From NCBI GenBank assembly GCA_013373205.1, contig JABXIG010000003.1, positions 1,157,853 to 1,221,852 of the forward strand: a stretch of DNA of 64,000 nucleotides, given 5' to 3'. Below, one piece after another: positions 4,417 to 15,670 of this stretch. This DNA is from Methylocystaceae bacterium (GTDB taxonomy: Bacteria > Pseudomonadota > Alphaproteobacteria > Rhodospirillales > Terasakiellaceae). The notes beneath the pieces were generated by a model. The model did no database searches. It was not told where the DNA came from and was given only the letters and a program-made list of their open reading frames with translations. Made by a program: the position numbers and the translations under genes. Numbering within the stretch: the first letter of the stretch is position 1; every line of letters begins with the position of its first letter.

Positions 4417-5781
4417 ATGCCCGGTAATCTGACATTTGATCAACTGAAAGATCAGGTCTCACAGGGTTCCATCGATACTGTTTTGGTTTGCCTGATCGAT
4501 ATGCAAGGCCGTTTGATGGGCAAGCGCTTTCATGCACAAAACTTTGTTGATATTTCCTATGAGGAAACCCACTGCTGCAATTATCTGCTAGCAACCGATT
4601 TGGAAATGGCAACCCCCGATGGGTATGCAGCAACCAGTTGGGCGCAAGGCTACGGCGACTATGTAATGAAGCCGGATCTTGACACCCTTCGGTTGGTGCC
4701 ATGGTTGGAAGGTACGGCGATGGTCCTGTGTGATACACTGGACCATCACCACCACAAACCTGTCCCCCATTCCCCACGTCAGGTTCTTAAACGTCAAATC
4801 GAACGTTTGGCTGAACTTGGTTATAAAGCCATGACAGCAACAGAACTGGAATTTTTCATCTTTGAAAAAAGCTTTGATGAAATCCGAAAAAATGGCTTTA
4901 GAGACCTTGAACCCATCAGTGGATATAACGAAGATTATCACATCTTCCAAACCACGAAGGAAGAAGGGGTCATGCGCCCATTGCGCAACCATCTGTTTAA
5001 TGCAGGCATACCTGTGGAAAATACCAAAGGGGAAGCCGAAAGCGGACAGGAAGAACTGAATATCCGATATGCCGATGCGCTGACCTGCTCGGACTATCAC
5101 ACCATTGCCAAACATGCGACCAAAGAAATTGCGTGGCAACAAGGTCACGCCGCCAGTTTCTTACCTAAATGGCATCATAACCGGGTTGGCAGTGCTTCAC
5201 ACGTCCATCAATCATTGTGGCAGGACGGCACCCCTGTTTTTTATGACCCGGATGCACCGCTTGGCATGTCCGAACTGATGCGTCATTACGTTGCCGGTTT
5301 GTTGAAATATGCCCCGGATTACACCTACTTCCTCGCGCCTTATGTCAACAGCTACAAACGCTTTGCCCCGGGTACATTTGCCCCGACAAAAGCCGTCTGG
5401 TCGATTGATAACCGAACTGCCGGTTTCCGACTATGTGCGGCAAATACCAAAGCCGTGCGCATTGAATGCCGCGTTGGTGGCTCTGACATCAACCCTTACC
5501 TTGCAATCGCGGCACAATTGGCTGCTGGCATTAAAGGGATTGAAGAAAAGCTAGAATGTCCACCAGCTGCTGATGGCGATACATACGCACAATCCAATGC
5601 ACCGGATATCCCCTGTACCCTGCGCGCCGCAACAGAAACCTTGCGAAATTCAACCATGTTGAAAGAAGCACTCGGTGAAGATGTTGTCGCACACTACACC
5701 CGCGCGGCAGAATGGGAACAGGAAGAGTTTGATAAAGTCGTCACCGATTGGGAAGTTGCCCGCGGTTTCGAACGCGCCTAA
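4417..5781 (+). CDS. Glutamine synthetase family protein, PuuA/GlnT-like gamma-glutamyl ligase
   Basis: A 454-residue enzyme of the glutamine synthetase fold. Metal and nucleotide motifs are intact: ELEFF at 143-147, GEAESGQEELN at 205-215, SHVHQSL at 261-267, RIECR at 348-352 and NPYL at 359-362. The N-terminal segment VCLIDMQGRLMGKRF is typical of gamma-glutamyl-amine ligases (PuuA, IpuC, GlnA4-like) rather than of GlnA, and no adenylylation-site tail is seen. Such enzymes join glutamate to an amine with ATP. Its place between a TRAP transporter and an aldehyde plus alcohol dehydrogenase pair supports a gamma-glutamylation catabolic route. The amine is unknown. Ordinary nitrogen assimilation is the less likely alternative. 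Confidence 0.85.
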   Translation: MPGNLTFDQLKDQVSQGSIDTVLVCLIDMQGRLMGKRFHAQNFVDISYEETHCCNYLLATDLEMATPDGYAATSWAQGYGDYVMKPDLDTLRLVPWLEGTAMVLCDTLDHHHHKPVPHSPRQVLKRQIERLAELGYKAMTATELEFFIFEKSFDEIRKNGFRDLEPISGYNEDYHIFQTTKEEGVMRPLRNHLFNAGIPVENTKGEAESGQEELNIRYADALTCSDYHTIAKHATKEIAWQQGHAASFLPKWHHNRVGSASHVHQSLWQDGTPVFYDPDAPLGMSELMRHYVAGLLKYAPDYTYFLAPYVNSYKRFAPGTFAPTKAVWSIDNRTAGFRLCAANTKAVRIECRVGGSDINPYLAIAAQLAAGIKGIEEKLECPPAADGDTYAQSNAPDIPCTLRAATETLRNSTMLKEALGEDVVAHYTRAAEWEQEEFDKVVTDWEVARGFERA

Positions 5782-5821
5782 TTAAGTAACGATCCTCTTG
5801 TTAGAAAGGTTTACAACAATC

Positions 5822-7219
5822 ATGACTGGATCACAAAAGACCTTGCAATGTATCAGCCCAATTGACGCGAGCGTTTATGCAGAACGTCCAATTGCCAGCA
5901 AGGAAGAAGCTTTAACTGCTGTCACAACCGCCAAAACAGCGCAGAAAGAATGGGCCACGCGCCCGTTGCAAGAGCGCATTGATCTCGTACGTAAAGGCGT
6001 GGAAAAACTGGGGGAAATGAACGAGAAAATCATTCCCGCCCTAGCTCACATGATGGGTCGCCCGATCCGATATGGCGGTGAATTTGGCGGCGTGAAAGAA
6101 CGTGCAGGCTACATGGCCGATATTGCCGAAGAAGCCCTGAAACCCCTGATCGTTGAAGAAAGCGATGCATTTGAACGCCGCATTATGCGTGAACCCCATG
6201 GTTTGGTGTTTGTGATTGCCCCGTGGAACTACCCTTATATGACCGCGATTAATACGGTTGCCCCGGCCCTTATTGCAGGCAATGCGGTTATTCTGAAACA
6301 TTCAACCCAGACTTTGCTGGTTGGGGAACATATGGTCAAAGCCTTCAGTGAGGCGGGCCTGCCAGCTGATTTGTTCCAGAATATCTATCTGGATCACGGC
6401 TTAACCGAAGAACTGATCGAGGCTAAAAGCTTCGATTTCATCAACTTCACTGGCTCTGTGGGGGGGGGTAAAGCCATCGAACGTGCCGCTGCCGGGACCT
6501 TCACAGGGACAGGCCTTGAACTTGGTGGTAAAGATCCGGGCTATGTCATGGAAGATGCTGATCTGGATGCCGCTGTAGATACTTTGATCGATGGCGCTAT
6601 GTTCAATTCAGGTCAATGCTGCTGTGGGATTGAGCGCATTTATGTTCATGAATCCCTTTATGACGCCTTTATCGAAAAAGCCGTTAAGATTGTCAGCGGT
6701 TACAAACTGGGTAACCCGCTTGAAGAAGAAACAACCATCGGCCCAATGGCCAACAAACGCTTTGCTGATGAAGTGCGCAATCAAGTTTTTGAAGCCCTGC
6801 GTGATGGGGCAAAGGCCCTGATTGATCCGGCACTCTTCCCGCTTGATACAGGCACCGATGCTTATCTTGCCCCGCAAATTCTGGTCAATGTCTCTCATGA
6901 AATGCGCGTGATGCGTGATGAAAGCTTTGGCCCGGTTGTCGGCATTATGAAAGTCAAAAATGATGCAGAAGCAATCGAATTGATGAACGACTGTGAATTC
7001 GGCCTGACGGCGTCCCTGTGGACCTCTGATGCCCAACGTGCAGCAAACATCGCCGCACAAATCGAAACCGGGACCGTATTTATGAACCGTGCTGATTATC
7101 TTGATCCGGGCCTATGCTGGACTGGTTGTAAAAATACAGGTCGTGGCGGTGCCCTTTCTGTCATCGGTTTCCATAATTTGACCCGTGTAAAATCCTACCA
7201 CTTTAAAAAGGCGTTGTAA
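5822..7219 (+). CDS. Aldehyde dehydrogenase family protein
   Basis: A 465-residue NAD(P)-dependent aldehyde dehydrogenase. The substrate-loop motif APWNYP lies at 134-139, the general-base glutamate in GLELGGK is E233 and the catalytic cysteine in GQCC is C267. Two extra cysteines (C266, C268) flank the nucleophile. I take the ATG at 5822, preceded by AGAAAGG at 5804-5810, rather than an in-frame TTG 24 bases upstream. It lies two bases before the alcohol dehydrogenase gene. The pair would oxidise an alcohol to an acid in two steps, as required after gamma-glutamylation of an amino alcohol (inference). Confidence 0.9.
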   Translation: MTGSQKTLQCISPIDASVYAERPIASKEEALTAVTTAKTAQKEWATRPLQERIDLVRKGVEKLGEMNEKIIPALAHMMGRPIRYGGEFGGVKERAGYMADIAEEALKPLIVEESDAFERRIMREPHGLVFVIAPWNYPYMTAINTVAPALIAGNAVILKHSTQTLLVGEHMVKAFSEAGLPADLFQNIYLDHGLTEELIEAKSFDFINFTGSVGGGKAIERAAAGTFTGTGLELGGKDPGYVMEDADLDAAVDTLIDGAMFNSGQCCCGIERIYVHESLYDAFIEKAVKIVSGYKLGNPLEEETTIGPMANKRFADEVRNQVFEALRDGAKALIDPALFPLDTGTDAYLAPQILVNVSHEMRVMRDESFGPVVGIMKVKNDAEAIELMNDCEFGLTASLWTSDAQRAANIAAQIETGTVFMNRADYLDPGLCWTGCKNTGRGGALSVIGFHNLTRVKSYHFKKAL

Positions 7220-7221
7220 AA

Positions 7222-8367
7222 ATGACCATTACAGCAAATTGGAGCTACCCCACAGCTATTCGTTTTGGTGCCGGGCGCATTCAGGAACTGGCAGAGGCCT
7301 GTGCCTCTGTTGGGATGAAAAAACCCTTATTTGTGACAGACTCAGGTCTGGTGAACTTGCCGATCGTTGCAACCGCCCTTGATGTACTGGACAAAAACGG
7401 CATGGGACGGGCAATGTTCAGCGAAGTTGAACCGAACCCAGATGAGATCAGCCTTGCAAAAGGGTTGGAAATGTACCGTGCAGGCGGTCATGATGGTGTG
7501 GTCGCCTTTGGTGGCGGCTCTGCCCTTGACCTTGCCAAAATCATTGCCTTTATGTCCGGTCAAACCCGCCCTGTATGGGATTTCGAAGACATCGGGGACT
7601 GGTGGACCCGTGCAGACGTTGATGGTATCGCCCCGATTATTGCCGTCCCGACAACAGCAGGGACTGGTTCTGAAGTCGGACGTGCCGGTATTTTGACCAA
7701 CAGTGTCGATCATGTGAAAAAGATCATTTTCCACCCTAAAATGCTGCCCTCAGTCGTTATCTGTGATGCTGAACTGACAGTGGGCCTACCCCCTGTTATT
7801 ACGGCGGGAACAGGGATGGATGCGTTCATTCACTGTTTTGAAGCCTATAGCTCAAACTTCTATCATCCCATGTCACAAGGGATTGCCTTGGAAGGCATGA
7901 AGTTGGTCAAAGACAATCTGCTTACCGCCTATAAAGATGGCACAAACATCGAAGCCCGCTCTCACATGATGAGTGCTGCGGCCATGGGGGCAGTTGCATT
8001 CCAAAAAGGACTGGGTGGTGTTCATGCGCTATCCCATCCGTTGGGTGCTGTCTACAATACGCCACACGGCATGACCAATGCCATCGCCCTGCCCGTTGTC
8101 CTTAAATTCAACCGTCCTGCGATTGAAGATAAAGTCAACTGTCTGGCAGCCTATCTTGGCATTGAAGGGGGATTTGACGGTTTTTATGACTGGGTGATCG
8201 AATATTCACGCGCCCTGAATGTACCTGAAAAAATGTCTGCCCTTGGCGTAGACAAAAAGCAGATCGATCTGCTTGCAAAAATGGCAGTTGATGATCCAAG
8301 TGCGGGGGGCAACCCGATCGAACTGAGCGTCGATATCACCACTGCCCTTTATGAAGAAGTCATCTAA
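7222..8367 (+). CDS. Iron-containing (group III) alcohol dehydrogenase
   Basis: A 381-residue dehydrogenase of the Fe-ADH superfamily. The NAD-binding GGGSALD lies at 97-103, PTTAGTGSE at 143-151, and metal ligands are predicted at D200, H204, H268 and H282, with the same 14-residue spacing between the last two as in FucO. It is the last gene of the operon and is followed by a strong terminator. Group III enzymes reduce or oxidise short alcohols, diols and amino-alcohol derivatives; the substrate is not evident. With the neighbouring aldehyde dehydrogenase it forms an alcohol-to-acid oxidation module. Confidence 0.92.
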   Translation: MTITANWSYPTAIRFGAGRIQELAEACASVGMKKPLFVTDSGLVNLPIVATALDVLDKNGMGRAMFSEVEPNPDEISLAKGLEMYRAGGHDGVVAFGGGSALDLAKIIAFMSGQTRPVWDFEDIGDWWTRADVDGIAPIIAVPTTAGTGSEVGRAGILTNSVDHVKKIIFHPKMLPSVVICDAELTVGLPPVITAGTGMDAFIHCFEAYSSNFYHPMSQGIALEGMKLVKDNLLTAYKDGTNIEARSHMMSAAAMGAVAFQKGLGGVHALSHPLGAVYNTPHGMTNAIALPVVLKFNRPAIEDKVNCLAAYLGIEGGFDGFYDWVIEYSRALNVPEKMSALGVDKKQIDLLAKMAVDDPSAGGNPIELSVDITTALYEEVI

Positions 8368-8396
8368 CTTAAACTGAGCTTTTTCAACCACAATAC

Positions 8397-8433
8397 AAAA
8401 AAAGACAGTCTGCATACTGACTGTCTTTTTTTT
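8397..8433 (+). terminator. Rho-independent terminator, convergent gap
   Basis: AAAAAAAGACAGTC, an eight-base loop, then GACTGTCTTTTTTTT. The stem is perfect and flanked by A and T tracts, so it can stop transcription in both directions: of the TRAP / dehydrogenase operon from the left and of the CobW operon from the right. Confidence 0.85.
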
Positions 8434-8460
8434 GCTTTTAAAGTTTATTATTTTAATGCC

Positions 8461-10338
8461 CTAGAAGTGAGCGGAAAAATCATTAACCGCTTTCTGGATA
8501 TCCTTACCGATAAAGATCAAAAACCGATCGGCCCCTTGCGCTTCATCGGAATCAGTCATCATGGGCGCACCGGGAACATATTGAATTAATTGGGGGGCTT
8601 CACAATCACTTAAGTCGATCACCCCTTTCACCCTAAGTACATTTTCTGGCAGGGAGCTCATAGCCTCGTTCAGTTTTTTTGCAGCAAGGGGTGAAGCAGG
8701 CTTCCAGATCAGACTGGAAATGCCATCCTCTAGATGTGTGTGATGATGGTCATGGTCAGCATGATCGTGATGATGATGGTTGTGACCATGGTCATGTGTA
8801 TGCTCACAGGTGGAGGCATGATCTTTCACACGCGTATCTTCACGTTTCCATGAGGCATTAATACCATACAGTTTTGCAGGGTTAATATCCCCATAATCTG
8901 TACAATAGACAGGGGCAACGGGATTTAATTTGGCAATGCCGTCTTCCAATTCGCGGCGATGATCCTCATTTATTTCAGAGGATTTATTCAGCAAAACCAC
9001 ATCAGCAAGACGCACCTGATCGCGTGCTATTTCATATTCATTCAATGTTTGCAAGCCCAGTCGCGCATCAACCATGCTTGTAATGGAAGAAAAGGTTACG
9101 TCATCTTCCAGTTCGTTAATTTCAGAAATCAGATTCGCCGGATTAGCCAAGCCAGTCGTTTCTAAAACAACAAAGTCAGGCTGATAATCACGCAAGATAT
9201 CAGCCAGCGCCAATTTCAAATTACCCGCCAATGTACAACAGACACAGCCTTCATCCATTTCAGAAACTGCATAACTTTGACCTAATAAGCTTGCGTCCAG
9301 TCCTTTTTGCCCGATTTCGTTTTGAACAACAGCGACAAAACCATTATGTGCAGCTTGATATTCAATAAAGCGGGTCAGAAAACTTGTTTTTCCAGAGCCG
9401 AGAAAACCTGTCAGTACAATTAATTTCGGTTTTTCCTTGATACCAAGGGAACGTTTATCCAAAGAATTTTTGGCCCCTGTCATTTCTGCCTGCAACCAGC
9501 TGGCCTTATCATATGGCTCTGGTAAATCTGCCGGGGCCTGCCATGTAGTCAAGATGGTTTCAAGGGGACAAAACTTATCATATGTCGCCCAACCGATTTC
9601 AAGACGTTGGCGATTTATATCTGTTGCCAGTTCAACAACCATACCACCTGTGCTGTCATAAAAATGACGTTCACAAGCCCCTTCAGAAATCTGCAGGTTT
9701 GTCGGTTTTGTTCTAACAGCATGGGTCATCGAAGCGACAAGGTTTTCAAAAAATGGTAAGGCACAAGCCAAACTATCAAGGTTTTGATCACACTCGCCGG
9801 GGGCAACGGCCTCAATCACTTCGGTTGCAGTTTTTACTTTAAGGCCGTCACTTGCAATAATCTGCGTATATTCATCAGCTTCAAGTGAAAGTGAAAATTG
9901 ACCAAATTTATTAACTTGGCAATGGATCTTCGCAACAGTGAATAGTCGGCTTAAATCATCGAAAGCTGGGAAATCGCGTAACCGTTCGATAAAGTCGTCT
10001 GCCATGGCGCAGATGCCCGCCTCGACAGAAAAATTGTTTAAACGTTCTTCTTCTGGGGATGGAAAATAGGATAGATTAAAACTTGCCACTCCCCCCTCGT
10101 CCGAGGTTTCTTCAGAAGCAATGCATTGCAGACCAAAGACACCTGCAAACCCTGCAATCCGGGTTGTTAGACTGCCGGGATCACACGCACATTCATGCAT
10201 ACCGCGCCATCCTAAATGTTGACGCACACCAGGAATAAAATTGACCCGCAACAAAGCTGCACCGGGAAGGCTTGCAGCAGTTCTGGCCGGATCTTCAAGG
10301 GTGGATGGTGGTAATATTGAGGAAAGGTCGCAGCGCAT
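8461..10338 (-). CDS. CobW-type G3E GTPase fused to an unrecognised N-terminal domain
   Basis: A 625-residue protein in two parts. Residues 303-625 form a complete CobW/P47K metallochaperone GTPase: Walker A GFLGSGKT at 311-318, the metal-site CVCC at 365-368, ETTGLANP at 393-400, an NKSS nucleotide motif at 451-454, a histidine-rich metal-sensing stretch at 512-535 and a CobW C-terminal domain to the end. Residues 1-300 match no family I know; they hold scattered cysteines (C50, C52, C72, C110, C140) and no membrane segment. Stand-alone CobW proteins are about 320-400 residues. AAGGAG lies seven bases before the ATG. It is last in an operon behind a Tat-exported metallo-hydrolase, so it may load metal into that enzyme before export (inference). 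Confidence 0.85.
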   Translation of the reverse strand: MRCDLSSILPPSTLEDPARTAASLPGAALLRVNFIPGVRQHLGWRGMHECACDPGSLTTRIAGFAGVFGLQCIASEETSDEGGVASFNLSYFPSPEEERLNNFSVEAGICAMADDFIERLRDFPAFDDLSRLFTVAKIHCQVNKFGQFSLSLEADEYTQIIASDGLKVKTATEVIEAVAPGECDQNLDSLACALPFFENLVASMTHAVRTKPTNLQISEGACERHFYDSTGGMVVELATDINRQRLEIGWATYDKFCPLETILTTWQAPADLPEPYDKASWLQAEMTGAKNSLDKRSLGIKEKPKLIVLTGFLGSGKTSFLTRFIEYQAAHNGFVAVVQNEIGQKGLDASLLGQSYAVSEMDEGCVCCTLAGNLKLALADILRDYQPDFVVLETTGLANPANLISEINELEDDVTFSSITSMVDARLGLQTLNEYEIARDQVRLADVVLLNKSSEINEDHRRELEDGIAKLNPVAPVYCTDYGDINPAKLYGINASWKREDTRVKDHASTCEHTHDHGHNHHHHDHADHDHHHTHLEDGISSLIWKPASPLAAKKLNEAMSSLPENVLRVKGVIDLSDCEAPQLIQYVPGAPMMTDSDEAQGADRFLIFIGKDIQKAVNDFSAHF

Positions 10339-10373
10339 GATGAAACTCCTTTTATCGAAAAGGAAAATCAGCA

Positions 10374-10396
10374 GGCCGTCGAAAAGGGCGACGGCC
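10374..10396 (-). other. Intercistronic GC-rich hairpin between the metallo-hydrolase and CobW genes
   Basis: GGCCGTCG, a seven-base loop and CGACGGCC give a perfect eight-pair stem in the 76-base gap. No T tract follows on the transcribed strand, so it is more likely an mRNA-stabilising or processing element than a terminator. It lies about 36 bases before the CobW start. Confidence 0.5.
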
Positions 10397-10414
10397 CGCC
10401 AGTTGTATAGAAGG

Positions 10415-11572
10415 TTATCCGAAGGTAATCACGTCACCATTACCCAGATAGGCTTTGTCTTTAGAGCGATAACGTGCTGTACCTTCAATCACAGGATAGC
10501 CTGCAGTTACGAATTTTCTCGCACACAAGACACCGGTGCAATGGTTGCACCCGATCTTTTCAAAGCCATAGTTCCGAAGGGAGATGACAAGGTCATCATA
10601 TTTCGGATCCCAGTCATCAAATGGCGAAATGTGAAGCCCACCGTAAATACCATGGAAGTTATCATTTTCGTATTTGATTTCTTTGATGGCTGTTTCTGCA
10701 AACCGGATGATGCCTTGATGGCAGCACCCTGTGACGCTGACTAACCCTTTGTCAGCGACATTGAAGTACAAGGATTGTTCACCGAAGACACGGCAAATAA
10801 TCGGAATTGGGAAGACATAGCTGGCCATACCCGGCAGGAATGTTTTCAAACCGTTTTTGACTTCAATGACTTCCCCTTTATGACCACTGTCTTTGATATA
10901 TTGCAGACCTTCTGGATAAAATCCTTCAGGGATGTAAATAGTAATTTCAGGGTCATATTTCATTGTGACTGGAAGACCCCAGAAGTGGTCAAAATGTTCA
11001 TGTGAGATAAACAAGGCTTCAATTTCTTTGTTGCGAAGCATTTTATCAATGCCTTCACGTTTGAAGCTTTCATCCATCCACTTATAGGACCAGCCACTGT
11101 CGAGCAGGAATTTATGTTTGTCACCTTCCATTCCTTCGACTTCGACCAAGGCTGCGAAACCGCCCGCATTGTCAGAGTGAATAGTTTCGCGTTCAATAAT
11201 TTCCCATGCTTCATCCAATTTATCAGGCAACAGGTGTTTGATTTTTTGGATACCATCTTCATAGGAACCATTGCCAAGACCTTTTCCGTTACCAAATGGT
11301 GGCCAGTTATAGTCATATTGGTTTACCAATAGACCCCCTGCCCCTTTGATGTCACCCATCAGGACGGCATTTTCAAACCATGAGGTTTCGGAAATGTTTG
11401 TGACCTTGACACTTTTGCAGATCCCGATGTCAGTCATTTTACGATCGGTTTCAGCGAAGTGGGTTTTACGTGCTGAGGAGTATGAATAGAACCCCATTGC
11501 ACCGAGTAACCCAACGCCGACGCCTGTTGTAGCGCCTTTTAAGAACGATCTGCGATCAGATGTACCAGACAT
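10415..11572 (-). CDS. Tat-exported metallo-beta-lactamase-fold hydrolase, COG1237-like
   Basis: A 385-residue protein starting with a textbook twin-arginine signal (DRRSFLK at 6-12) and a hydrophobic segment at about 15-33 without a clear cleavage site, so it may remain anchored. The metal site HEHFDH lies at 191-196. TGCCHQGI at 281-288, YGGLHI at 310-315 and GCNHCTG at 341-347 are signatures of the COG1237 branch, which includes archaeal dihydropterin ribofuranosylaminobenzene phosphate synthase. The substrate here is unknown. I chose the ATG with GAGAGGAGA just upstream over an in-frame TTG ten codons earlier. It lies between the polytopic membrane protein and the CobW fusion, 22 bases after the former. 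Confidence 0.85.
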   Translation of the reverse strand: MSGTSDRRSFLKGATTGVGVGLLGAMGFYSYSSARKTHFAETDRKMTDIGICKSVKVTNISETSWFENAVLMGDIKGAGGLLVNQYDYNWPPFGNGKGLGNGSYEDGIQKIKHLLPDKLDEAWEIIERETIHSDNAGGFAALVEVEGMEGDKHKFLLDSGWSYKWMDESFKREGIDKMLRNKEIEALFISHEHFDHFWGLPVTMKYDPEITIYIPEGFYPEGLQYIKDSGHKGEVIEVKNGLKTFLPGMASYVFPIPIICRVFGEQSLYFNVADKGLVSVTGCCHQGIIRFAETAIKEIKYENDNFHGIYGGLHISPFDDWDPKYDDLVISLRNYGFEKIGCNHCTGVLCARKFVTAGYPVIEGTARYRSKDKAYLGNGDVITFG

Positions 11573-11594
11573 GACTTTTCTCCTCTCGCTAGGG

Positions 11595-13007
11595 TTACTC
11601 AATAATCGTGATCATGCTGTAGAACGAAGGCAGCGCGAACACGGTGATGAAATAGAAGGCAACGCCGCAGACAGCACCAACACCAAGACCCAGGCCCCAG
11701 TTTTCACGTGGACGTGCATCTTCGATTTGGGCAAGTTTCATTTGACGTTCTGCGGCAAGTTCATCTGCACTTTTGATTTCAAGTTTCCAACCCGGCCAAT
11801 TATCCATGAACCAGTGATGAACCAGCATCAGATTAACGAGCCAGATCATCGGGATCATCGGGAATTGTTGTGGGTGAGAGAAACCTTTTTGAGTCCCAAG
11901 GAACAGATGTGAAGTTTTGTAGTACACGATGTACAGCAGAACTGAAGCGGCCAATACGATCAGTGTACGTACAGCAACATTAACCGGCATGGAGAACTTC
12001 CGTGGCCAATTGTCAAAATAGAAGTGCAAGACAAGGGCTGGAACAAGGAAGAAGATCGCCATTTCACCGACATGCAACCAGCGCCAGTCTGGTGCAAAGG
12101 CACGACGTGTTCCGCGGACTGCTTCGCCCCATGTCAATTCTTGTGCAAAATACAGGAAGAAGTGAACAGAAACGGCAATCGCAATAATTCCGAAGAAAGT
12201 CGCAAGACGACGTAACCAGTTGTTGCGGATCAGGTTGAAGGGATAACGCTCCCAGATGGTTTCCACCAGCCAGACCACAACTGTACAGCACATGATCCAG
12301 GAGATATGGAAGTTACCGGAAACGGTATCAGCAAATTCTTCCCAATACGGTGGTGCGATTGAGGTGAAGTACTGCCACGGGTGATACAGAATACCCATAT
12401 GTGGGTGCATGGTTACAAAATACACCACAGTTGACAGGAAGAAGCTTGCAATAAGAATGGAAAAACCACGACCTGGTTGGGTCATTTTTTCCCATGGGCT
12501 ATTCTCGAAAGCCACGACCCAGGCTGGTGACAACCAGGATGCAATAGCGGCAAACATCAAAATTGCCAGACTTGCATATTCAATGGCAAAGAAAGATGTG
12601 ATGCCAGGAAGTTTTTCGAGTTGTTCAGGGTTAAAGTAGGCCAGACCAAAGTTGCCGAGCAAGCCTTCAAAGAAGCCTTTAATCAAAACAACAAGGATCA
12701 AGACTGAACCACCAGTAAGGACGACGCCTTTCAGCAATGGATGGGTATTTTCAAGCCAGGCCCGTTTAAAAGGCCAGAAATCAAACAGATAAACCATCCA
12801 GATCATCATGATCAGCCACCAGCGGCAATACATATAACCTACATACGGAGTATACATACGCAACACACCGCGCGGATCTTGGAAAATCCACCATGTTGCA
12901 TAGAATACGGCTACTAACAGGACTAGATTGACCAGCGCTGAAACAGGGCCAGGCCATCTTTTGACCAGTTTTCTTTCCTCTAGGAAGCCTACGCCATAGT
13001 TTTCCAT
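11595..13007 (-). CDS. Polytopic inner-membrane protein of unknown function (about 11 helices)
   Basis: A 470-residue integral membrane protein with about eleven hydrophobic segments and an unusually high tryptophan and histidine content. Examples are CRWWLIMMIWMVYLFDFWPF in the second helix, TMHPHMGILYHPW after the fifth, and LVHHWFMDNWPGW near the tenth. Such clustered histidines near helix ends could bind metal or haem (inference). A short charged cytoplasmic stretch (about residues 405-430) precedes the last helix. I do not recognise the family. Its position directly ahead of the Tat-exported metallo-hydrolase suggests that they work at the same membrane, as transporter and enzyme or as one complex. 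Confidence 0.8.
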   Translation of the reverse strand: MENYGVGFLEERKLVKRWPGPVSALVNLVLLVAVFYATWWIFQDPRGVLRMYTPYVGYMYCRWWLIMMIWMVYLFDFWPFKRAWLENTHPLLKGVVLTGGSVLILVVLIKGFFEGLLGNFGLAYFNPEQLEKLPGITSFFAIEYASLAILMFAAIASWLSPAWVVAFENSPWEKMTQPGRGFSILIASFFLSTVVYFVTMHPHMGILYHPWQYFTSIAPPYWEEFADTVSGNFHISWIMCCTVVVWLVETIWERYPFNLIRNNWLRRLATFFGIIAIAVSVHFFLYFAQELTWGEAVRGTRRAFAPDWRWLHVGEMAIFFLVPALVLHFYFDNWPRKFSMPVNVAVRTLIVLAASVLLYIVYYKTSHLFLGTQKGFSHPQQFPMIPMIWLVNLMLVHHWFMDNWPGWKLEIKSADELAAERQMKLAQIEDARPRENWGLGLGVGAVCGVAFYFITVFALPSFYSMITIIE

Positions 13008-13067
13008 GACACTCTCCCGTTAGGTTTGACGAGGAACCCTGTAAAAAACAGGTTGTTCCTTGTACGA

Positions 13068-13346
13068 TTACTCTCCGCGTTGTTCTTGCATACATAAACA
13101 GATTGCTGCGAGTAAGGCTTCTTGTTCCATGTTGTCAGCATCCAGACCAAGACGTTCAGCTTCTGCGCGTAGCATGTCGGGAGTGAAATCAGATTGAATC
13201 GCTTCCAGCGGCAAGCCACCGAAAGAGGGTTGTTTAGGCATTTCACAGGGTGTTACCTGTGATGCAGACGCTGATTTGTGATGTTCTGTTTTAAAGAACG
13301 CCCCATGTAACAGGTCTCTGCGTGACATTAAGCCGAGGTTCAACAT
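13068..13346 (-). CDS. Small hypothetical protein with an SRRDLL motif
   Basis: A 92-residue protein of unknown function. AGGAGG lies seven bases before the ATG at 13344-13346, which sets the start even though another in-frame ATG sits six codons on. The N-terminus holds MSRRDLLHGAFF (7-18), like a twin-arginine motif but without a hydrophobic stretch; NapF-type redox accessory proteins carry similar leader-like tags. The rest is soluble, with an acidic helical part at 52-92 and only two cysteines (C33, C84). Its start overlaps the end of the GntR gene by seven bases, so the two are co-translated, and it precedes the membrane-protein gene. Confidence 0.7.
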   Translation of the reverse strand: MLNLGLMSRRDLLHGAFFKTEHHKSASASQVTPCEMPKQPSFGGLPLEAIQSDFTPDMLRAEAERLGLDADNMEQEALLAAICLCMQEQRGE

Positions 13347-14098
13347 CTTGCTTCCTCCTGAACAGCGTTTGCAATGACGGGTGATAAAGGCACGTTACGT
13401 AATTTGGAAAATGCAACGGCCGTATTGACGATTTTTCGCCGTGTTGCACAGCGTGCCTGTTCTACGTTCTTATCTTTCAGTGCACGGAAAATGCGTACGA
13501 AGTCACCAAACATTTTGGCCCGTTCATCTTCGGGGAAAGATAGAAAACGTGGGAAGACCACCGATGCACTCACACAAAGTGAACGCACAACCTCGTCAAC
13601 AACGGGGTTATCGGTCGCTGTCGCAATTTTATAGAAAAATTTTTTAGTTTGAGCTTTGATCTGGTTCATATCTTGTTCAACGATCGCAGACCCTAATTTT
13701 GAAATAATCTCTTCAAGTTTTTTAACCTCAAGACTATCAATCCGAAGAGCTGCAAGCCCCACCAGTTCCGGCAAAAAAAGATAGGCTGCCTCCAAACGCG
13801 ACATAAGATTGATGACAGAATCATCATCCATCAAGTCCGTTTTATGTGAATGGGGTTCACGTGAAGTGAGATAACATCCGCTGCCTTTGCGAATAGACAC
13901 CATGCCGCGTGTTTCTAAACGTTTCAAGACATGGCGCAATGTATTGCGGCTCACACCAAGATCAGCAGAAAGCTGGCGTTCAGCGGGCAGACGCTCCCCA
14001 ACTTTCCACGACCCATCAGAAATCATCTGAACGAGTTGCGCGTCCAGCTTCATTTCTTGACCTGCCGGAGCCTGATTATGGTGCGATGCGGTTCTCAT
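13340..14098 (-). CDS. GntR-family regulator, FadR/FCD type
   Basis: A 252-residue regulator. A GntR winged helix lies at about 15-80 (GERLPAERQLSADLGVSRNT and LKRLETRGMVSIRKGSG), followed by an all-helical FCD-type ligand domain. The ATG at 14098 is used; an in-frame TTG five codons upstream also lacks a good ribosome site and would lie inside an operator-like repeat. It is the first gene of the operon with the small protein, membrane protein, metallo-hydrolase and CobW fusion. Two TGGYTCTACCA repeats in the divergent control region fit the TGGTnnnACCA half-site pattern of FadR-type regulators, so autoregulation is likely (inference). Confidence 0.85.
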   Translation of the reverse strand: MRTASHHNQAPAGQEMKLDAQLVQMISDGSWKVGERLPAERQLSADLGVSRNTLRHVLKRLETRGMVSIRKGSGCYLTSREPHSHKTDLMDDDSVINLMSRLEAAYLFLPELVGLAALRIDSLEVKKLEEIISKLGSAIVEQDMNQIKAQTKKFFYKIATATDNPVVDEVVRSLCVSASVVFPRFLSFPEDERAKMFGDFVRIFRALKDKNVEQARCATRRKIVNTAVAFSKLRNVPLSPVIANAVQEEARC

Positions 14099-14101
14099 AA
14101 C

Positions 14102-14112
14102 TGGTTCTACCA
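14102..14112. promoter_or_regulatory. Operator-like inverted repeat TGGTTCTACCA
   Basis: A perfect TGGT-N3-ACCA palindrome just upstream of the GntR start codon, downstream of the predicted minus-strand promoter. It fits the FadR-subfamily operator pattern and is repeated at 14189-14199. Confidence 0.6.
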
Positions 14113-14153
14113 AAGTAATAGTTAGGTTTTTTAGATTCTAATAATCCTCATAT

Positions 14154-14181
14154 ATATTATATAAAAATCACAAAAAGTCAA
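14154..14181 (-). promoter_or_regulatory. Predicted sigma-70-type promoter of the GntR / CobW operon
   Basis: On the minus strand TTGACT (14181-14176) is followed after 16 bases by TAATAT (14159-14154). The surrounding stretch is very AT-rich. The two operator-like repeats lie on either side of it. Confidence 0.5.
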
Positions 14182-14188
14182 GAAAAAT

Positions 14189-14199
14189 TGGCTCTACCA
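14189..14199. promoter_or_regulatory. Operator-like inverted repeat TGGCTCTACCA
   Basis: Differs from the 14102-14112 repeat at one base. Centred 87 bases from it, close to a whole number of helical turns, and between the two divergent promoters. Confidence 0.55.
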
Positions 14200-14211
14200 C
14201 TTTGGTCTGAA

Positions 14212-14240
14212 TTGGTTTAACATGCAGAATATGGTAATAT
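14212..14240 (+). promoter_or_regulatory. Predicted promoter of the PAS/GAF-like gene
   Basis: TTGGTT, a 17-base spacer and TAATAT. The -35 match is weak. It lies 54 bases upstream of the chosen start codon. Confidence 0.35.
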
Positions 14241-14293
14241 GAACATACGAGGGTCAGGGCCTTGAACGTTTTCACAGTAAGGTGCAACAAATA

Positions 14294-15226
14294 ATGAACG
14301 TAAATCACATCGAAGATTCATTAAACATGGAAGATATTGAAGAATGTCTGGGAAGCATGGCGGCCTTGCTTTGGCGCGTCGAAACAGAAAAGGCGCGCCT
14401 TGAAATACTCAATCGTCATGGCTTTAGTCATCTAAATGTAGATGCCGTTCAACTTTTGAAAAACCCAAATTACCGTCAACAAATTACACATGGTGATGAC
14501 CTGTTGGACCTGAATGCGACCATGCGCGCGGTTCAACAAGGCGAAACGGTCTCAACTGTTTTTCGTGTCGTTGTGCAAGACGGTAAAACAATCTGGTTAA
14601 AGTTAGCCAGCCATGTTGACCCGCAAAGACCGGGCTATGTCTGGGGGCACTTAATTGACCTGAGCGATGTTGTGAATGATTTCCTGCACCAACCCCGCCT
14701 TGCATGGGGTATGCAATCCAGTAAAGCCCCCCCCTCTTTTCCAACTGATGGGGGATTACTGGCGACATTCTCCCCCCCACAAAAGATGGAAGATATTTTG
14801 CGTCTTCTTTTTGAACAACAAGAAGAACCAGAATTTGATAGTATTTTATTTTCTGATGTGAATCTTAAAGACAAGAAAGTCACGGTCTATTCCCACGGTG
14901 CCCCCTTTGCTGAGCTGGAACAGGAAAAAACATATCCATACGAAGGTACAATCGCTGAGAACATTGTGACGTTTAAACTAGATCATCTCATTGTTGATGA
15001 CACGCTAGATAGTATCAAACCAATTGACTGGGCCCTTTTTATTCCGGCAGGAATTCGTTCTTATTATGCCAAACCAATTTTTAACGTTGGTAAAATCGAA
15101 AGCGTGCTGATCCTCTGTTCAACACGCCCCAAAGCCTTTAGCGAAGAACAGACGAAAGAGTTCACAGATGTGTTCAAATCCTTTCAATCTGCTCTTCAAC
15201 AATGGCGAAACCAGCCTGAAGCGTAA
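14294..15226 (+). CDS. PAS- and GAF-like sensory protein without an output domain
   Basis: A 310-residue soluble protein. Residues about 10-125 have the pattern of a PAS domain, ending in WLKLASHVDPQRPGYVWGHLIDLSD, like a PAS core plus PAC. Residues about 165-300 resemble a GAF domain, with the IPAGIRSYYAKPIF and VLILCSTRPKAFSEE segments typical of its last strands and helix. No kinase, GGDEF or DNA-binding part is present. I prefer the ATG at 14294 with AAGGTG at 14279-14284 over a GTG 12 bases earlier. It diverges from the GntR / CobW operon and shares its control region, so it may sense for that system (inference). Confidence 0.6.
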   Translation: MNVNHIEDSLNMEDIEECLGSMAALLWRVETEKARLEILNRHGFSHLNVDAVQLLKNPNYRQQITHGDDLLDLNATMRAVQQGETVSTVFRVVVQDGKTIWLKLASHVDPQRPGYVWGHLIDLSDVVNDFLHQPRLAWGMQSSKAPPSFPTDGGLLATFSPPQKMEDILRLLFEQQEEPEFDSILFSDVNLKDKKVTVYSHGAPFAELEQEKTYPYEGTIAENIVTFKLDHLIVDDTLDSIKPIDWALFIPAGIRSYYAKPIFNVGKIESVLILCSTRPKAFSEEQTKEFTDVFKSFQSALQQWRNQPEA

Positions 15227-15235
15227 GAAATCTCC

Positions 15236-15670
15236 TTACAGGTAGGCAGCCAGTTTCTGTTTCATTTCCTCATCAAAGGGGACCGATTTACCGGTATCAA
15301 GGTCTGCTTTCACCAATACCGTTTCTGCCGTTGAAAAACAGACGTCTTTTGCAAAAAGCCCCTGATGAATCACGATAGAACTGTTGCCAATTCTACCAAT
15401 TTTTGTGCCAATCGAAATATCATTGGGGTAATCAACGGGCAGACGATAAGTGATATTCAAATTTGCGATCACCCAATTGATTTTTGATCTGAAGTCATGA
15501 TCTAAAACGCGCACAAAAAAGTCAGCCCGTGCCGTCTCACAATAAACCGCTGAGGCAATATTGTTGAGATGGTTCAATGCATCCAGATCCGCAAATCGAA
15601 ACGTTTCTTCAGTCCAGAAATTAAACGTTTCACGTTGAGTTAAATCTTGTAGATCAGCCATACTCAGCAC
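15236..15670 (-). CDS. Acyl-CoA thioesterase, 4-hydroxybenzoyl-CoA thioesterase family
   Basis: A 144-residue single hotdog domain with the family active-site segment FADLDALNHLNN at 26-37, where the aspartate after FA is the expected nucleophile or base. It hydrolyses an acyl-CoA to free acid and CoA; chain specificity is unknown. It is the last gene of the long beta-oxidation operon and overlaps the crotonase stop by seven bases. Its 3' end lies ten bases from the convergent PAS/GAF gene, with no room for a separate terminator. Confidence 0.85.
   Translation of the reverse strand: MLSMADLQDLTQRETFNFWTEETFRFADLDALNHLNNIASAVYCETARADFFVRVLDHDFRSKINWVIANLNITYRLPVDYPNDISIGTKIGRIGNSSIVIHQGLFAKDVCFSTAETVLVKADLDTGKSVPFDEEMKQKLAAYL

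Follow-up and report, generated by a model that had tools for sequence, protein, structure and literature searches.

The MBL superfamily is characterised by an HxHxDH motif together with further His/Asp metal ligands. CobW/COG0523 proteins act in Zn and Co supply (PMC7895991). Within the 64,000-nucleotide stretch of DNA that was analysed (the window), genes for both kinds of protein lie in one cluster with that of a 470-aa membrane protein with 11 helices, MEM. Judging from sequence, this compact gene set, found in purple bacteria, sulfate reducers and gut bacteria alike, seems to encode a metal-dependent machine on the periplasmic side of the inner membrane. The portion of the literature that was searched contained no description of the gene set, and nothing in it matched the composition that an earlier sequence-only reading had called unlike any named system.

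Gene layout and conservation across genomes

Five genes lie on the reverse strand of the window. In transcription order they encode a 252-aa GntR/FCD regulator (13340–14098; ATG start, with a TTG at 14113 also possible), a 92-aa protein with an SRRDLL motif (13068–13346), MEM (11595–13007), a 385-aa MBL-fold hydrolase with a Tat signal (10415–11572), and a 625-aa CobW fusion (8461–10338) composed of an N-domain (residues 1–302), a CobW GTPase domain (307–477) and CobW_C (540–617). The first two genes overlap by 7 nt, and the following gaps are 60, 22 and 76 nt. The last of these carries a terminator-like hairpin of 13 pairs, nine of them G–C (10401–10369, reverse strand), so the operon may be attenuated before CobW. 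Another terminator-like hairpin (8397–8432, listed on the forward strand) lies between the CobW end and a convergent Fe-ADH gene. Divergent from the operon is a gene for a 310-aa PAS/GAF-like sensor (14294–15226, forward strand) in which no output domain was detected; the Pfam matches of the window copy are all below cutoff, and PAS is above cutoff in two of four scanned relatives (L008, L055). Re-analysis of the window thus recovered the genes and order that the sequence-only reading had described.

MBL adjoins MEM in all 80 fetched loci, and the CobW fusion is matched in 73 of them; 69 of these matches reach the GTPase, the other four (L019, L023, L051, L078) having less than 2.8 kb of downstream sequence. 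Two of the seven misses are contig ends, and four of the remaining five carry the N-domain as a separate gene. The gene-order comparison set beforehand as the refuting test of the earlier reading therefore found the MEM–MBL–CobW order to be strongly conserved. The regulator and the divergent sensor are less constant: among loci with enough flank GntR is present in 42 of 68 (absent from 26) and the sensor in 38 of 58. The idea of a conserved system under GntR was right in that the module is conserved and often GntR-linked. Beyond the reach of the sequence-only reading were the c-type cytochromes of tier 2 (described below) and the ExbB–ExbD–TonB genes. The latter occur in 24 of the 80 loci, the window not among them, with Pfam MotA_ExbB and ExbD above cutoff and a TonB C-terminal domain.

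MEM is 59–81% identical to that of the window across Alphaproteobacteria, Desulfovibrionia, Desulfobacteria, Sutterellaceae and others. Distances correlate with those of MEM at r = 0.93 for MBL, 0.89 for CobW and 0.74 for GntR (raw values, shared ancestry included), and sequence comparison supports common inheritance of MEM and MBL. The small protein, in which RR stands close to the N-terminus with no hydrophobic stretch after it and a 'PELL..EA.RLG.D' C-terminal half recurs, is encoded, by a strict motif, upstream of MEM in 33 of 77 loci and in six of seven tier-2 loci; matches dropped as spurious were five more in tier 1 (L004, L017 and second matches in L056, L061 and L080) and extra matches in tier-2 L121 and L127. 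No MEM was found in G399 and G401, the two congeners looked at out of five. Similarity of their DNA to the window stops at 8365–8370 and resumes at 15236 (G401) or 15324 (G399), but as each flank is on a contig of its own they give no demonstrated empty site. Sulfur chemistry, suggested by DsrC-like neighbours in L026 and L027, was dropped as not general.

The hydrolase, the membrane protein and the CobW fusion

The MBL protein scores above cutoff for PF00753 (Lactamase_B), and residues H191, H193, D195, H196, H285, H314, D322 and H344 are invariant in all 80 aligned rows (the window plus 79 of 80 loci; L005 is cut). Its twin arginine, R7R8, is likewise invariant in 80 of 80 rows. With TIGR01409 above cutoff (PF10518 is below its own), the protein is a predicted Tat substrate, in agreement with the sequence-only reading, whose own label for it, COG1237-type, is consistent with 7dck and 2p4z, its closest solved relatives in sequence.

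Eleven hydrophobic segments were counted in the window MEM. Residues H201, H203, E143, C240, H312, E315, H367 and H378 are invariant in 76 of 76 tier-1 rows (the window plus 75 of 80 loci; L050 and L061 are too short, and in L046, L048 and L053 the tblastn match runs on beyond the end of the ORF). The predicted periplasmic loops are strongly conserved, with near-invariant aromatics. MEM sequences form three tiers, of which tiers 1 and 2 are linked to MBL. The predicted periplasm-side HxH (H201/H203) with E143/C240 is present in 76 of 76 tier-1, six or seven of seven tier-2 and none of 12 tier-3 sequences. Both MBL and the N-domain occur in all seven tier-2 loci; in the 12 of tier 3, neither the MBL nor the N-domain profile of the module finds a match at E ≤ 1e-5. 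The comparison supports confinement of the putative HxH site to MBL-linked versions of MEM.

Homology of tier 3 to MEM is distant (E 3e-10 to 8e-23). Near the tier-3 genes (35 proteins), the families listed, 25 of 38, include at least five AMP-binding ligases, three methylmalonyl-CoA mutases, two thiolases and two CoA transferases; far from them (47 proteins), the 25 of 55 families listed include at least one thiolase and one ETF, both sets being small and containing some spurious ORFs. Tier 3 thus often lies near acyl-CoA enzymes, from which a transport role can be guessed. One far protein of tier 3 has a Pfam Lactamase_B match yet does not match the module's MBL profile.

The CobW part of the fusion is above cutoff for PF02492 and PF07683 and contains a GCVCC motif, a His-rich stretch and CobW_C; G316, K317, T318, C367 and C368 are invariant and C365 nearly so in 65 rows; the fusion alignment covers 64 of the 73 fusion loci. 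It falls short of the cutoffs for CobW sensu stricto in B12 synthesis (TIGR02475, 96.6 of 332.1) and ZigA (NF038288, 77.6 of 600), and no NCBIfam family among the 17 listed reaches its cutoff. The GTPase is not essential to the module, since there is no fusion in five Rhodospirillaceae loci and none in tier 2; it is the N-domain that is common to distant relatives. A further alignment omitted four of the 64 loci and took in three stand-alone N-domains. Few polar residues of the N-domain are invariant. Ten of 11 stand-alone N-domain proteins have a C-terminal CxC motif and nearby His. Comparison supports the view that the N-domain is a dedicated assembly factor, joined either to a GTPase or, in most other cases, to a Cys/His tail. 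The suggestion that metal loading precedes Tat export gains indirect support, in that the N-domain travels with MEM–MBL even without the GTPase and mostly has this tail when it stands alone, but the GTPase itself is dispensable.

Neither MEM nor the N-domain could be placed in a known family with the libraries used. For MEM, Pfam gave only single stray matches among 76 members (PF07168, 2e-4; PF07331, 3e-4), the window protein had no NCBIfam match, PDB sequences gave none at E ≤ 1, and Foldseek against PDB none at E ≤ 0.001 (best 0.021). For the N-domain, none of 64 relatives showed a Pfam family, a Foldseek comparison of its confidently predicted model with PDB gave nothing at E ≤ 0.001 (best 0.075), and its profile matched PDB sequences only at E 0.59 or worse. 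The listed superpositions are poor, so new folds are weakly indicated. One module therefore holds two families without a convincing Pfam model.

Operator sites and the regulator

The regulator has PF00392 (GntR HTH) and PF07729 (FCD) above cutoff and scores below the NCBIfam equivalog cutoffs for PdhR (65.5 of 330) and LldR (69.3 of 311). A palindrome, TGGTTCTACCA, lies at 14102–14112, and TGGCTCTACCA, with one departure from the strict form, at 14189–14199; neither has a strand. They flank promoter-like hexamers, TTGACT-16-TAATAT (14181–14154, reverse strand; consensus match only). The single promoter predicted earlier has this match between the operators, but it is not beyond chance (seven promoter-like matches over 8350–14400 against 9.5 expected). 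Within the window TGGYNNNACCA is not beyond chance either (10 found, mean 5.04; 11 of 100 shuffles had as many). Conservation across loci nevertheless shows the operator to be real: 33 of 44 loci have strict TGGTNNNACCA between −300 and +40 relative to the GntR start and 11 have none, where the remaining sequence of these loci predicts 0.37 sites, which upholds the two operator-like repeats of the sequence-only reading. Compared with the PdhR box of PMC7660256, the operator is a PdhR-box-like palindrome at GntR's own promoter. In the window's own genome the exact pattern YTGGTNSNACCAR occurs 11 times against 14 for the reversed control. Since the count is not above the control and, of the 10 sites besides the window's, nine fall within mechanically called ORFs and one (L159) between them, no further regulon is claimed.

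Function of the module and comparison with known systems

We tentatively favour, with less than even confidence, a model in which MEM and MBL form a periplasm-facing, metal-dependent complex that a dedicated chaperone metallates, an organic acid probably being released and imported. The complex would be the core of a self-contained, horizontally shared module. The N-domain would recognise MBL, MEM or both and deliver metal before or during assembly; MBL, exported by Tat, would act in the periplasm by hydrolysing an ester, a lactone or a related compound; and MEM would import the released acid, which the FCD domain may sense, given the ligand class and behaviour of its family. Where present, ExbB–ExbD–TonB could power outer-membrane entry of substrate or metal, and the small RR protein may help to route MBL to Tat. 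The model is favoured by the constant adjacency of MBL and MEM and their correlated distances, the distribution of the HxH site over the tiers, the Cys/His tails of stand-alone N-domains, the acyl-CoA neighbours of tier 3, the FCD domain, the PdhR-box-like operator and the ExbB–ExbD–TonB genes, and weakened by the distant tier-3 homology, the 26 of 68 loci without GntR and the few invariant polar N-domain residues; the lack of catabolic genes in the operon also counts against it. It is a further weakness that a plain permease would have no evident use for near-invariant aromatic periplasmic loops, a metallochaperone or the c-type cytochrome of tier 2.

That cytochrome has a single CxxCH heme motif and, in each case, an 'ADPERPGKTRD' stretch; its gene immediately precedes MBL in L088, L125 and L127, three of the seven tier-2 loci. 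It points to a possible, if doubtful, alternative: MEM may itself be a periplasm-facing membrane metalloenzyme, with metal at H201/H203 together with E143/H312, MBL as catalytic or maturation partner, and the quinone pool or a c-type cytochrome as electron acceptor. HxH and E143 go together with MBL and the CobW N-domain, the conserved predicted periplasmic loops agree, and the L125 heme protein is weakly, below cutoff, similar to SorB and to quinohemoprotein amine dehydrogenase heme domains. However, the heme protein is absent from four of seven tier-2 loci, tier 1 has no adjacent cytochrome (a CxxCH scan of ORFs of at least 90 aa in 77 loci with resolved MEM found three within 6 kb, none adjoining), and no fold is recognised for MEM. 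Uptake of a metal or metallophore, in which a chelate would enter by a TonB-dependent route, be hydrolysed by periplasmic MBL, imported by MEM and its metal delivered by CobW in the cytoplasm, is unlikely. It would account for the ExbB–ExbD–TonB genes of 24 loci, the His-rich tails and the Zn/Co role of CobW/COG0523 proteins given in PMC7895991, but the operator is a PdhR-like GntR site (the search covered the GntR-type palindrome), tier-3 relatives adjoin acyl-CoA genes among the neighbours checked, and the CobW GTPase is dispensable. Adjacency of unrelated genes by chance, for which no evidence emerged, is extremely improbable, being refuted by MBL in 80 and the CobW fusion in 73 of 80 loci across several phyla.

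More broadly, MEM and MBL could conceivably represent a novel kind of membrane metalloenzyme that faces the periplasm, is metallated by a dedicated N-domain chaperone, whether or not a GTPase is fused to the latter, and is coupled in some lineages to the proton-motive force through its own ExbB–ExbD–TonB or to a c-type cytochrome; it would catalyse a hitherto unnoticed reaction in bacteria of sediments and the gut. We regard this as speculative. Through the module a COG0523-type protein would gain a concrete client, and sulfate reducers and genera with gut members (Parasutterella, Sutterella, Bilophila) an unrecognised capacity.

Among known systems, uptake operons pairing a periplasmic hydrolase with a permease would accommodate MBL plus MEM, and we know of none with the MEM family or a dedicated metallochaperone. 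The window regulator resembles PdhR/LldR-type GntR–FCD regulators in its domains and in an operator like AATTGGTNNNACCAATT, but differs in falling below both NCBIfam cutoffs and in that nine of the 10 other pattern sites of the window's genome are within called ORFs. The ExbB–ExbD–TonB neighbours share the Pfam domains of known energisers but accompany only some of the loci. The CobW fusion is like CobW/COG0523 metallochaperone GTPases in its GTPase domain, CxCC, CobW_C and His-rich stretch, and differs by its 302-aa N-domain without a Pfam family and its membrane-protein neighbour. Finally, MBL shares the common metal-ligand motifs with COG1237-like hydrolases (residues 140–356 match 7dck and 271–350 match 2p4z), but is set apart by its Tat signal, an extra N-terminal stretch of ~140 aa, and MEM as its neighbour in every fetched locus.

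Composition and conservation of the module

Re-derived from the window, the five genes on the minus strand, like the PAS/GAF-like sensor gene that diverges from them (14294-15226, plus strand), lie where the sequence-only reading had placed them. Pfam and NCBIfam assign domains to the GntR/FCD regulator (GntR, 13340-14098), the hydrolase with a Tat signal (MBL, 10415-11572) and the CobW and CobW_C parts of the CobW fusion (8461-10338); neither gives an above-cutoff assignment for the membrane protein (MEM, 11595-13007), the small SRRDLL protein (13068-13346) or residues 1-302 of the fusion (the N-domain). Packing is tight, the intergenic distances being a 7-nt overlap followed by 60, 22 and 76 nt. 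Because a terminator-like hairpin (10401-10369) sits in the 76-nt gap between MBL and CobW, the level of CobW may be below those of MEM and MBL. On the plus strand, glutamine-synthetase-like, aldehyde dehydrogenase and Fe-ADH genes (4417-8367) form a separate operon, closed by a terminator-like hairpin at 8397-8432.

The proposal that these genes form one system was borne out by gene order across genomes, most strongly for MEM, MBL and the CobW fusion: MBL adjoins MEM in all of the best 80 of 106 relatives from a contig scan with MEM, the set retained for locus counts. A CobW-fusion match lies near MEM in 73 of the 80; 69 of these matches reach the GTPase and the other 4 stop at contig ends. 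Two misses are at contig ends (L005, L014), and the remaining five are all from Rhodospirillaceae (L046, L048, L050, L053, L061), each except L061 with a stand-alone N-domain upstream of MEM. Of the 68 loci whose upstream sequence spans at least 2 kb, 42 have GntR upstream; of the 58 in which it spans 4.5 kb or more, 38 have the PAS/GAF-like gene (41 loci in total, 16 with the gene on the strand opposite to MEM). ExbB, ExbD and TonB occur together in 24/80 loci (representatives checked with Pfam), and in 22/61 with at least 6 kb downstream. Pairwise distances for MEM and MBL correlate at 0.93, a figure that includes shared ancestry.

Divergent copies coexist in one genome in two cases (L008 and L056, same contig; L055 and L057, same MAG), which suggests two module sub-types with different roles. 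Tandem DsrC-like proteins stand beside the module, near CobW, in deltaproteobacterial L026 and L027 (Pfam check for L027 only). In L004, L025, L027, L029, L037 and L039, a small protein that looks secreted or like a lipoprotein and contains a VIPEM motif is encoded near MBL/CobW, either once or as a duplicate; neither of two scanned had an above-cutoff Pfam family.

The membrane protein, its relatives and the N-domain

By simple hydropathy rather than a dedicated predictor, MEM has 11 hydrophobic segments, and its invariant H201, H203, H312, H367 and H378 are predicted to be periplasmic or at the periplasmic edge, counting from an assumed inside amino end. In the AlphaFold model (pLDDT 80.9, pTM 0.84), the low-confidence stretches (209-220, 222-229, 300-305, 375-380) are parts of predicted periplasmic loops. 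We found no PDB match at E≤1 by sequence profile and no Foldseek match at E≤0.001 (best 0.021).

MEM relatives fall into three tiers, tier 1 being the window type. Tier 2 (L088, L121-L125, L127) combines MBL, MEM and an N-domain without GTPase in 7/7 loci, with the small RR protein in six. In three of the seven, a single-heme CxxCH protein, a c-type cytochrome, directly precedes MBL (L088, 10824-11309; L125, 6162-6497; L127, about 6150-6605); these small cytochromes have 'ADPERPGKTRD' in common. Tier 3 (L126, L128, L130-L135, L176-L179) comes from 12/297 genomes, in a scan that additionally picked up one tier-1 gene weakly; the module MBL or N-domain profile matched in none of the 12 loci, one of only 3.3 kb.

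H312 is present in every MEM sequence compared, in all tiers. H201, H203, E143 and C240 are found in 76/76 tier-1 sequences, in 6-7 of 7 in tier 2 and in 0/12 in tier 3; the putative HxH site, present in the MBL-linked tiers and missing in tier 3, thus tracks the presence of MBL and N-domain. Tier-3 relatives make up an unclassified membrane family that may be linked to the use of fatty or organic acids; their genes often lie close to those for acyl-CoA ligases or for methylmalonyl-CoA mutase. The 35 proteins within 2 kb include five AMP-binding ligases, three methylmalonyl-CoA mutases, two thiolases and two CoA transferases, and for the 47 at least 4 kb off, one thiolase and one ETF are among the matches listed (single cases were checked individually).

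The N-domain model (pLDDT 93.9, pTM 0.91) has no Foldseek match at E≤0.001, and none of 64 members has a Pfam match. When fused, the domain stands before a GTPase with CxCC, to which the window protein adds a His-rich stretch; when stand-alone, it carries a C-terminal CxC motif and nearby His in 10 of 11 cases (exception L123). We infer that the domain recognises a target and is tethered to an element that carries metal.

Regulation and distribution

TGGTNNNACCA occurs between -300 and +40 from the GntR start in 33/44 loci, against 0.37 sites expected from its density in the rest of the same loci. The consensus of 56 collected sites (54 strict from loci, two from the window) resembles AATTGGTNSNACCAATT and differs little from AATTGGTnnnACCAATT, the PdhR box of E. 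coli (PMC7660256). NCBIfam cutoffs rule out GntR as a PdhR or LldR orthologue. Nine of ten further YTGGTNSNACCAR sites in the window's own genome fall within called ORFs, which suggests that GntR acts as a local regulator.

The distribution of MEM is patchy. It was found in 2/398 genomes sampled from the phylum, own genome counted; in 1/385 from the class, the own genome; in 4/40 relatives, including the own genome and the distant G429, with 0/5 among the congeners in that set; and in 28/297 from the phylum of Malonomonas, all tiers included. In a quick-method tree without bootstrap, mostly Thermodesulfobacteriota, the window's MEM clusters with five alphaproteobacterial rows (SH-aLRT 95), adjacent to Desulfuromonadia (SH-aLRT 96). 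Congener DNA without MEM matches the window on both sides of the module, the two flanks being on different contigs. Together, tree placement and absence from congeners with both flanks matching suggest transfer between lineages.

Candidate functions

In the reading to which we tentatively commit, MEM and MBL would form a complex at the periplasmic face, the N-domain/CobW protein would metallate it, and hydrolysis by the complex would release an organic acid that the complex then imports. Its better supported part, the complex together with a dedicated assembly factor, is probable; hydrolysis plus import is the weaker element, suggested by the regulator's FCD domain, by its PdhR-like operator and by the acyl-CoA neighbours in tier 3. 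The three tier-2 cytochromes favour instead a membrane metalloenzyme composed of MEM and MBL, which we consider only slightly less likely than the uptake reading as a whole, and a metal-uptake system seems less likely again.

No description of the module was found in the open-licence PubMed Central papers searched. If hydrolysis with import is correct, the module would be a known type of hydrolase-permease uptake, varied by its own metallochaperone; if MEM and MBL form an enzyme, it would be a new kind of system.
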